From positions 1 to 64,000 of the forward strand of contig JAOAPR010000237.1 in assembly GCA_025463005.1 (NCBI GenBank): a stretch of DNA of 64,000 bases, read 5' to 3'. Below the pieces are notes generated by a model. The model saw only the letters and a program-made list of their open reading frames with translations. It did no database searches and had not been told where the DNA came from. Positions within the stretch are counted from its first letter, which is position 1, and each line of letters starts with the position of its first letter. This DNA is from Bryobacterales bacterium. GTDB lineage: Bacteria > Acidobacteriota > Terriglobia > Bryobacterales > Bryobacteraceae. This document shows positions 17,047 through 19,241 of the stretch, one piece after another. A program made the translations under genes and the position numbers.

Positions 17047-17958
17047 TCACTCTGCCTTACCCGATACAAGCGACTCGATAAATTTCCGCTCAATGGGCCA
17101 GGTTCCGGTGACTTGATCCTTTTGCGCTTCGAAACGGCCCGCCACCAGGATTCCGCTGAGGTCAGATGACGGCGGCTTGAGCTTGTCCCGCTCGAGCATC
17201 TTTTTCAGCAGATCCGTCACGTTCGAGAACTGCGCGGCCATCTTGGCGGCATCGTCAGGAGCGGCGCATTCCACTGTCATGCGCAGCTCGAAGGTTTTCT
17301 GATCTGGTGACGGACCAAGCGTGAAAACCGTGTTGCGCGCTTGCGCGAGTTGCGTTCGAAACGCGCCTACGCCAGCCGGAAGATTCTTCGCATCGGAAAA
17401 TATATACGGCGGCGCTGAAACCCACACCGCGGCGGTGGGGATTTTGGGCGGATCTTTCCAGAACCCGGGCAGGATCATGCGGGACGCTTGCGGATCCCGC
17501 GCCACTGCCAGCGCCAATACGTCGCGGCGCAAGAGAGCGAAGGAAATTGTCTTGCCGGCCTGGTTGGCAGGCATGCTGCACGCGCCACTCTCGCAGGAAC
17601 CCTGGTGCGATCGTGCGTAGTCCGCCAGACGATTCCACTGAAAGCGGCCTTGCACGGCGAAATATTCGTCGCCATCGCGGAATCCGGCGGCGACCGCATC
17701 CAGATCGGTGCGGTAATTGAATCCGGTTTGCTCAATGAATTTCTTGTAGTCGACCTCTTCAACCGCCTGGGAGCCGGCAAGCAGGTCCAGAATACCTGCG
17801 GAGCGGAGCAGGCCCACATTCATGTAGACATGCAAAGACCGGTCGGAGGGAAGACACTGAACCAACCTCACCGCGTCGTAGGGACGTGAATAAAACCAAT
17901 ACGCCGAGGCGCCCAGTACGACGCCCACCGCCGCCATGAATGCGGCCCATTTTTTCAT
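17047..17958 (-). CDS. Membrane-anchored protein, unknown
   Basis: The gene encodes 303 residues: a signal anchor (AAFMAAVGVVLGASAYWFY) and then an extracytoplasmic domain of about 275 residues without a recognised motif. Two Cys in CESGACSMP may form a disulfide. The gene is directly convergent with the anti-sigma gene (stops abut) and lies downstream of aroF on the same strand, separated by a palindromic repeat that ends 8 bp before its ATG. No good ribosome site is visible, perhaps because of that insertion. Confidence 0.6.
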   Translation of the reverse strand: MKKWAAFMAAVGVVLGASAYWFYSRPYDAVRLVQCLPSDRSLHVYMNVGLLRSAGILDLLAGSQAVEEVDYKKFIEQTGFNYRTDLDAVAAGFRDGDEYFAVQGRFQWNRLADYARSHQGSCESGACSMPANQAGKTISFALLRRDVLALAVARDPQASRMILPGFWKDPPKIPTAAVWVSAPPYIFSDAKNLPAGVGAFRTQLAQARNTVFTLGPSPDQKTFELRMTVECAAPDDAAKMAAQFSNVTDLLKKMLERDKLKPPSSDLSGILVAGRFEAQKDQVTGTWPIERKFIESLVSGKAE

Positions 17959-18049: not shown

Positions 18050-19090
18050 CTATACGGCGGCAGCAGTCTCAGCCATGCGCGCCTGCTTCCACAGCGCTAC
18101 GTAGGGCTTCAGATCGGCCATCATCTTTGCGAACTGCTTGGGATCGAGCGATTGCGCTCCGTCGCTCACCGCTTTTTCCGGATGCGGGTGCATCTCGACG
18201 ATCAGCCCGTCGGCTCCGACGGCGACTCCGGCCCGAGACAATGCGGGAACCAAGCTGCGCTTTCCGGCGGCGTGGCTGGGGTCGAGGATCACAGGCAGGT
18301 GGGTGAGCTCGTTCAGCGCCGCGATCGCTCCGATGTCGCAGGTGTTACGAGTAACGGTCTCAAATGTTCGGATCCCGCGTTCGCACAACATCACCTGCTG
18401 GTTCCCATGCGCGACAATGTATTCGGCCGACATCAACAGCTCCTTGACCGTGGCGCTCATGCCGCGCTTGAGCAGGATCGGACGGCCGCACTTGCCCAGC
18501 AGTTTGAGCAGCGCAAAGTTCTGCATATTGCGTGCGCCGATCTGCAGAACATCGGCGTACTCGGCCACCATGTCCACGTCGCGATCGCTCATTACCTCGG
18601 TGATGATACCGAGACCCGTCACTTCGCGTGCTTTCGCCAGGAGCTTCAGGCCTTCCTCTTCGAGGCCCTGGAAATCGTAGGGGGACGTTCGCGGCTTGAA
18701 AGCTCCGCCACGCAGAAGCTTGGCTCCGTGCTTAGCGACGATCTCGGCCGATTCCAGGATCTGCTTCTCGCTTTCCACCGAGCAGGGGCCCGCCATTACC
18801 ACGAATTCGTCGCCGCCGATGGTAGTGCCGGCCACCGAGATTTCCGTCTTGTGGGGGCGGAACTCTTTGCTCACGAACTTGTAAGGCGCCGAGATGCGGA
18901 CCGCCTTTTCCACTTGCGGCATGGCCTCGAGCGATTCCAGGCAGGCTGTGACATCGCCCATCCCGACCGCGCCGATCACCACGCGCTCTTCTCCTTCAAT
19001 GGAGTGGACCTTATAGCCGAACTCTTCGATTCGAGCACGCACCTGAGCCACCTCTTCCTTGGTCGCATGCAGTCGCATGGAAATAATCAT
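18050..19090 (-). CDS. aroF: 3-deoxy-7-phosphoheptulonate (DAHP) synthase
   Basis: The gene encodes 346 residues from ATG 19090. An N-terminal ferredoxin-like regulatory domain (about 1-70, [31 protein letters not shown]) precedes the barrel, as in Thermotoga-type class I-beta enzymes. Barrel motifs include [55 protein letters not shown], and [12 protein letters not shown]. It condenses PEP and erythrose-4-phosphate, the first step to Phe, Tyr and Trp. The N-terminal domain can give allosteric control; a leader attenuator upstream (19113-19241) adds transcriptional control. Confidence 0.95.
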
Positions 19091-19112
19091 CGAAAACCCC
19101 TCCCAAACAAAA

Positions 19113-19134
19113 AACCCACTCTTTCGAGTGGGTT
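19113..19134 (-). terminator. Intrinsic terminator in the aroF leader (attenuator)
   Basis: On the minus strand, AACCCACTC and GAGTGGGTT pair around a GAAA loop and are followed at once by TTTTG and more T, a textbook intrinsic terminator. It lies 22 bp before the aroF ATG and after the leader-peptide stop, so it can stop transcription before aroF. Confidence 0.85.
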
Positions 19135-19156
19135 TGTTTTGCAAATTCCAGATTGG

Positions 19157-19164
19157 CCCACTCG
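19157..19164 (-). promoter_or_regulatory. Antiterminator segment of the aroF attenuator
   Basis: The minus-strand segment CGAGTGGG is perfectly complementary (8 bp) to CCCACTCG at 19132-19125, the 5' arm of the terminator. Pairing here would block the terminator. The segment lies 7-14 bases after the leader-peptide stop, so a ribosome that reaches the stop would cover it, while a ribosome stalled at the aromatic codons would leave it free. Confidence 0.7.
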
Positions 19165-19170
19165 CCCGTT

Positions 19171-19227
19171 TCAGCCGGTAAAGTACCGGAACCAAAATCG
19201 ATACGAGCTGGCAAAGCCCCGAGTCAT
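19171..19227 (-). CDS. aroF leader peptide, aromatic-rich
   Basis: An 18-codon frame from ATG 19227 to TGA 19171 encodes [18 protein letters not shown]. Seven residues are Phe, Tyr or Trp, and six fall in the eight codons 9-16 (YRFWFRYF). This is the composition expected of a sensing peptide for an enzyme that starts Phe/Tyr/Trp synthesis, followed by mutually exclusive terminator and antiterminator pairings. The codons 14-18 also sit in a small hairpin (19175-19189). No ribosome site is seen; the promoter would start the mRNA 0-3 bases before the ATG, implying leaderless translation. Confidence 0.8.
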
Positions 19228-19235
19228 GAAGATCG

Positions 19236-19241
19236 ATTATA
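19236..19241 (-). promoter_or_regulatory. Extended -10 promoter of the aroF leader
   Basis: TATAAT on the minus strand is preceded by TGT, giving an extended -10 (TGnTATAAT). No good -35 is seen, which is acceptable for this class. The predicted start is near 19229, giving a leader of about 140 bases before aroF. Confidence 0.7.

Follow-up and report, generated by a model that had tools for sequence, protein, structure and literature searches.

A probable leaderless attenuator reading three aromatic amino acids upstream of aroF in Bryobacterales and related Acidobacteriota

The 64,000-nucleotide stretch of Bryobacterales DNA analyzed here (the window; contig JAOAPR010000237.1 of assembly GCA_025463005.1) carries on its minus strand aroF, whose product, a type I-beta DAHP synthase, scores above the cut-offs of the NCBIfam profiles PRK08673 and DAHP_synth_Bsub. 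Between a promoter hexamer and the gene lie a short frame rich in Phe, Tyr, and Trp codons and a terminator-like stem, and this arrangement raises the question of whether translation of the frame decides transcription of aroF and, if so, to which amino acids it answers. Our analyses strongly favor control of aroF by ribosome-mediated attenuation of transcription, as in trp/his leaders, in a leaderless and trivalent form; this is the explanation best supported by the anatomy, conservation, selection, and geometry of the region.

Elements and predicted pairings of the leader

The leader ATG, at 19227, lies 8 nt past the TATAAT hexamer (Table 1), and translation of the frame gives seven aromatic codons in 18 (F5, Y9, F11, W12, F13, Y15, and F16). 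Segment 2 is found 7–14 nt past the leader stop, and its 8-base complementarity to segment 3, the 5' arm of the terminator, is perfect. These features agree with an earlier note on this DNA, which had also described the extended -10; the terminator that it reported stands as well, although its limits (given as 19113–19134) and its distance from the gene (22 bp) shift by one base, with a stem of 10 pairs and a loop of 4 that ends 21 nt upstream of the aroF ATG. On the other side of aroF, an ORF at 17047–17958 resembles by eye the ORF that follows aroF in a distant relative (L169) and is a possible conserved neighbor.

Table 1. Coordinates of the aroF leader elements in the window
Feature	Position	Strand	Basis
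Extended -10 hexamer TATAAT, preceded by TGT	19236-19241	-	sequence read
Leader peptide frame, 18 codons, probably leaderless	19171-19227	-	reading frame, conservation, selection
Segment 1, within leader frame; pairs with 19160-19174 around stop and segment 2	19192-19208	-	MFE folds
Segment 2, CGAGTGGG; partner is segment 1 or 3	19157-19164	-	complementarity
Segment 3, CCCACTCG; with 2 antiterminator, with 4 terminator	19125-19132	-	complementarity
Segment 4, GAGTGGG, followed by T6	19115-19121	-	sequence read
Intrinsic terminator, segments 3 and 4 with T-rich tail	19112-19135	-	stem prediction
aroF, type I-beta DAHP synthase, proposed regulated gene	18053-19090	-	profile match

The 140-nt leader has a minimum free energy of -50.6 kcal/mol, a stability reached by none of 200 dinucleotide shuffles (z = -2.8). 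For the leader as far as segment 2, the most stable predicted fold is a 1:2 hairpin, formed by GCTCGT, TCG, and TTTTGG of the frame with the bases flanking the stop and with CGAGT of segment 2. Because a segment of the frame pairs with segment 2, the predicted design has four segments and is trp-like, replacing the three-segment design of the earlier note. Folds with a ribosome placed on the frame, assumed to cover 10 nt beyond the occupied codon, depend on its position. With the ribosome on any of the seven aromatic codons, the free RNA up to arm 3 forms 2:3, and the energy of the whole free stretch before arm 4 is -12.7 to -23.8 kcal/mol; the 2:3 fold still forms with the ribosome at Gly18 (-11.8 kcal/mol), and with the ribosome at the leader stop the free RNA up to arm 3 reaches only -3.4 kcal/mol. 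Together with the spacing of segment 2, these folds fit the proposal that a stalled ribosome would free segment 2 and a ribosome at the stop would cover it. Equilibrium folding with arm 4 present returned the terminator in every case, even with a stalled ribosome; antitermination must therefore be kinetic, decided before arm 4 is made.

The region thus drawn looks as if it worked like a trp-type attenuator. Judging from the -10, transcription would start at the leader ATG or 1–2 nt before it, and a ribosome would enter directly at the 5' terminus, in the manner of leaderless mRNAs. A shortage of charged Phe-, Tyr-, or Trp-tRNA would stall the ribosome in the aromatic stretch, where it would cover segment 1 and leave segment 2 free to pair with segment 3 while RNA polymerase passes, so that transcription would continue into aroF. 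With all three tRNAs charged, the ribosome would reach the stop, cover segment 2, and then leave, after which 1:2 would re-form, 3:4 would form, and transcription would end before aroF. We infer the start site, leader translation, stalling, and direction of the response from elements, conservation, and geometry that are themselves read from sequence.

Comparisons across loci favor the 2:3 and, less clearly, the 1:2 pairing, but the window's own pairings do no better than controls. The 1:2 hairpin is on average stabler than in synonymous shuffles (mean z = -0.84, Wilcoxon P = 2e-4, 55/69 loci), with several loci positive; in the window, by contrast, 90 of 200 synonymous variants match the hairpin in stability (z = -0.07). 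The 2:3 duplex formed with a locus's own partner averages -17.97 versus -16.83 for permuted partners, a difference that ignores kinship (69 loci) and is matched by 1 of 5000 permutations; the duplex of the window (-16.1) is weaker than its swapped-partner mean (-19.6). Many lineages have a longer antiterminator, GAGTGG-bulge-GTTGG with CCAAC-CCACTC, and its extension GTTGG:CCAAC is paired in 302 of 399 cells, a count reached by 2 of 5000 permutations (57/83 loci, kinship again ignored). Covariation in the core is thin because segments 2–4 are nearly invariant, as is the CCCACTC/GAGTGGG terminator in 36 aligned loci.

Conservation and history of the leader

Among 80 of 383 aroF relatives that were kept as a first set (flanks of at most 1.5 kb), 69 loci have a -10-like hexamer followed after 4–13 nt by a frame containing three or more aromatic residues, a few of these loci being weak cases (e.g., L031 and L077), and a CCCACTC/GAGTGGG-like terminator is present in 68 of the 69 as well as in the window. 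Loci from order, class, and phylum searches enlarged the set to 200, 160 of them unique. Three with less than 200 nt upstream were dropped, and the remaining 128 close (at least 64% identity) and 29 distant loci were scanned for the strict combination of a -10 hexamer 4–12 nt before the start, an aromatic frame, and a terminator. The strict scanner was positive at 88 of the 128 close loci, including the window's, and at none of 640 shuffled upstream regions or 128 opposite strands. Loss of the leader in close relatives had been set beforehand as grounds for rejecting the attenuator, and its presence in these 88 loci leaves the proposal standing. A relaxed definition, which has no shuffle control of its own, recognizes a leader at 98 of 123 loci; 25 of the 123 clade loci are without a recognized one, yet at least two of these (L180 and L181) bear one elsewhere in the analysis. 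Below 64% identity the strict scanner was positive at 2 of 29 loci (L169 and L172), and no aromatic leader was found at the 27 distant loci L085–L111 (53–63% identity) apart from a poor chance frame at L094.

The distance from the -10 to the start codon, for which the strict scanner allows 4–12 nt, is 8–9 nt in 62 of the 88 strict leaders. The near-leaderless start, which the earlier note considered an oddity, is instead the usual form, and, judged from this spacing, the frame probably starts at or beside the 5' end of the transcript.

A covariance model built from 36 sequences has matches in 117 of the class's 299 genomes, with full-length or nearly full-length matches in families f1, f85, and f86 and mostly terminator-only matches in f2 and f87; the window's genome has one copy by this model. 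A survey of the phylum returned 14 of 297 genomes, three of them in the window's genus; in the remaining 11 the match is partial in six, mostly the terminator alone, and longer in five (G195, G010, G030, G043, and G068). In 20 stretches around matches, aroF is immediately downstream in 17. The others are L182, where a short frame has an aroF-like N terminus, and L179 and L184, where other genes follow Cys-rich frames. The element before the short frame of L182 (genome G567) is a second copy, perhaps a decayed duplicate. In family f17 of another class, the model matches directly before aroF genes of 54–55% identity; the terminator is present, and longer frames translated by eye include WFWWSWRF (L241) and WFWWPWHF (L242 and L243). 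These long leaders escaped a relaxed frame scan that covered 19 upstream regions; the one doubtful frame that it returned, at L243, we reject as a leader. On an AroF tree (FastTree, with many weak forks), presence of the leader requires 21 changes versus a mean of 43.3 for shuffled labels, none of 500 shuffles being as low. The leader is probably ancestral in this aroF clade and has probably been lost repeatedly since.

Three further observations concern individual loci. At seven of the 25 loci without a recognized leader (L050, L051, L058, L079, L190, L195, and L205) the motif ACACC-N8-GTGGTG occurs 86–100 nt before aroF, with a -10-like hexamer seen by eye near the aroF ATG itself; the motif occurs at one of the 98 leader-bearing loci (L158, at -254). 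A DNA operator perhaps replaces the attenuator at these seven loci. L170, L171, and L173 retain the aromatic leader before a DAHP synthase without about its first 71 residues (the N-terminal domain), the L170 product being confirmed as a DAHP synthase. Finally, a metagenome bin titled Bordetella parapertussis (L009) has a Bryobacteraceae-like aroF with leader, and its title is probably wrong.

What the leader peptide would sense

Strict leaders have 13–28 residues, 35% of them aromatic on average, and 4–10 aromatic codons, with 65 of the 88 having 6 or 7. In 27 non-overlapping pairs drawn from 97 leaders, pS is 0.376 and pN 0.099 at codons where one member or both encode an aromatic residue, a ratio of 0.26 (bootstrap 0.15–0.49); at the other leader codons pS is 0.199 and pN 0.154. 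By this measure the aromatic codons are under purifying selection, and the frame is kept for them. Codon choice within the leaders is also skewed: TTT accounts for 164 of 219 Phe codons (23% in aroF genes) and CGA for 71 of 176 Arg codons (6% in aroF genes), for which pairing or slow decoding is conceivable.

Segment 2 is an exact GAGTGG or GGGTGG in 72 of the 97 leaders. In these, it lies 14–18 nt after the last aromatic codon preceding it in 61 (sd 6.2, range 1–63) and lies at -24 to +48 nt from the stop (sd 8.6, modes +8 and -1), being at most 12 nt past the stop or inside the frame in 70. Its distance from the ATG varies about as little (sd 6.9), and the spacing by itself therefore does not point specifically to the aromatic codons. 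In the first 80-locus set, segment 2 was taken as the best complement, an assignment that is doubtful for the L016/L033/L035/L039 type; in L016, L033, and L035 it is weak and inside the frame.

The conservation and selection described above bear on simpler explanations. A plain promoter-proximal terminator or RNA structure, with the frame a by-product of U-rich RNA, would account for a strong and near-invariant terminator, but a scan that found no leader in 640 shuffles, a conserved start and spacing, and selection on the aromatic codons make it extremely improbable. A protein or small molecule might bind the leader RNA and the frame merely tune the outcome, as the unusual sequence invariance of segments 2–4 could suggest; invariance is, however, expected of several segments that have to form alternative pairs among themselves, and a search of Rfam at gathering score matched no family to this element, giving only a tRNA in the window, with amino-acid leaders and T-box unmatched, and nothing at 20 related loci. 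We see scarcely any probability in such a ligand. Nor do we give much weight to arrest of the ribosome by the nascent peptide upon binding of a free aromatic amino acid, for which TnaC is the model and which would replace depletion of charged tRNA as the signal. The exact core RFW recurs in 50 of 88 leaders, as such an arrest peptide might require; yet the sequence, length, and residues near the stop vary widely, and a ribosome arrested where the frame ends would sit on or beside segment 2, which makes this reading very unlikely.

If the ribosome-mediated attenuator is accepted, the narrower question is whether a single amino acid is its sole or main signal. Phe is the commonest of the three (287 F versus 169 Y and 127 W over the 88 leaders), and Phe limitation is the condition under which AroR of C. 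glutamicum acts in the accessible part of PMC11802643. The Tyr and Trp codons would then be incidental, which is difficult to reconcile with the presence of all three residues in 81 of 88 leaders, of Y in 83 and W in 86, and with the RFW core, in which F adjoins W. We therefore regard sensing of Phe alone, or mainly of Phe, as unlikely, and the proposal that all three aromatics are read at once is supported. The DAHP synthases of the genome may offer part of the reason. In the window's genome, which is 96% complete, an AroF search found aroF and one other frame, which is KDO8P-synthase-like (kdsA-like) and sits beside a pyrG-like one, both named by look and identity; neither a type II nor a type I-alpha DAHP synthase was found there. 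Such a lone entry enzyme would need to respond to each of the three products. A type I-alpha enzyme is present in addition in four of 26 relatives, which all belong to the window's genus (G353, G370, G435, and G187), a point that favors sensing of Phe alone, and the single enzyme is thus at best part of the reason for trivalency.

Known attenuators and possible leaders at other genes

The enteric trp and phe leaders follow the same 1:2, 2:3, 3:4 logic as that predicted here, with regulatory codons in segment 1; they differ in starting from a Shine-Dalgarno sequence, in sensing one amino acid each, and in the genes that they control. Leader frames without a ribosome-binding site are reportedly found in the Cys attenuators of mycobacteria (said to be the work of Canestrari et al. 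in 2020) and in the ilvBNC leader of C. glutamicum (reportedly described by Morbach in 2000), which share this feature with the aroF leader but concern other amino acids and another phylum. Leaderless initiation is discussed in the accessible part of PMC11857589, and predicted leaderless genes average 13.3% in three acidobacterial genomes according to an extract of PMC3160421.

Attenuators before aroF as such are already known. The closest is aroR-aroF of C. glutamicum, where, in the parts of PMC4046766 and PMC11802643 available to us, an aromatic leader peptide likewise precedes a DAHP synthase gene and stalling raises transcription. As the latter recounts Neshat et al. (2014), AroR has Phe-Tyr-Phe and acts under Phe limitation; the leaders described here belong to another phylum and have 4–10 aromatic codons, usually for all three amino acids. 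The accessible part of PMC11802643 also names trpL and pheL as leaders. The uORFC-13-1 motif of Acholeplasma (24 representatives; PMC8632094, in part) consists of a predicted uORF and terminator and is confined to sites upstream of aroF; its features include a ribosome-binding site and a run of U that encodes one or more Phe, whereas the acidobacterial leaders usually contain three aromatics and, judged from the distance between -10 and ATG (8 nt in the window, 8–9 nt in most strict leaders), leave little or no room for such a site. The same text mentions an attenuation-type hypothesis for E. coli aroF, and an upstream element is predicted for Shewanella aroF in an extract of PMC2659441. Our search of the literature on attenuation and aromatic leader peptides, covering mostly journals open without subscription, found no account of this element in Acidobacteria, and the accessible portions of PMC4833913 and PMC2965389, returned for Acidobacteria, leader peptide, and attenuation, contain no such aroF element. 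As far as these searches reach, the earlier note's claim of novelty holds for the leaderless and trivalent form, in Acidobacteriota and without an Rfam family, and not for the kind of attenuator.

Candidate leaders also occur before other genes. At L184:103–150 (G553), the frame MGVNIHIGCCVCCCA and a terminator precede a 650-aa ORF whose best family, below cut-off, is NirA (sulfite/nitrite reductase group), and at L179:90–161 (G195), MTTISNTFSFRCCCCCNVTGVRG and a terminator precede a peroxiredoxin-like ORF (below cut-off); both are possible Cys attenuators. A scanner that recovered L003 and L010 found no -10 hexamer 5–12 nt upstream of either Cys frame. On the minus strand of L244 (G010), the frame MDVQPAGANNYFWCWYRQGGWSAF, which includes NYFWCWYRQGGW, has TATTCT 8 nt before its ATG and is followed by a terminator and a trpE-like gene (best family trpE_most, below cut-off and partial at the locus end). 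Among 30 trpE-family loci of relatives two frames were found, neither with a terminator; among 60 leuA/ilvB loci four frames have a -10 and a hairpin, none a clear branched-chain leader, and a stricter scanner returned no frame. At L293 (G187), directly at the start of ilvB, a 23-residue frame with a -10-like hexamer and a hairpin has 10 residues that are I, L, or V; this is a single case that may be due to chance.

We are accordingly cautious in extending the aroF design. It is possible, though doubtful, that leaderless leader peptides are a general and old mode of attenuation in Acidobacteriota, in which the start codon comes first in the transcript and the ribosome would load at once, coupled to RNA polymerase from the outset; the design would be used at aroF in more than one class, at trpE in one lineage or more, and possibly at Cys-linked genes, with a trivalent sensor of the whole aromatic pathway at aroF. 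We hold this slightly less probable than before because both Cys frames are without a -10 hexamer at leaderless spacing. For aroF itself, one cis element could tune the flow into aromatic synthesis to three amino acids. A conserved attenuator with a leaderless start would lend itself to direct tests of how ribosomes load and become coupled to RNA polymerase, and its nearly invariant arms illustrate how several segments of an RNA can constrain each other.
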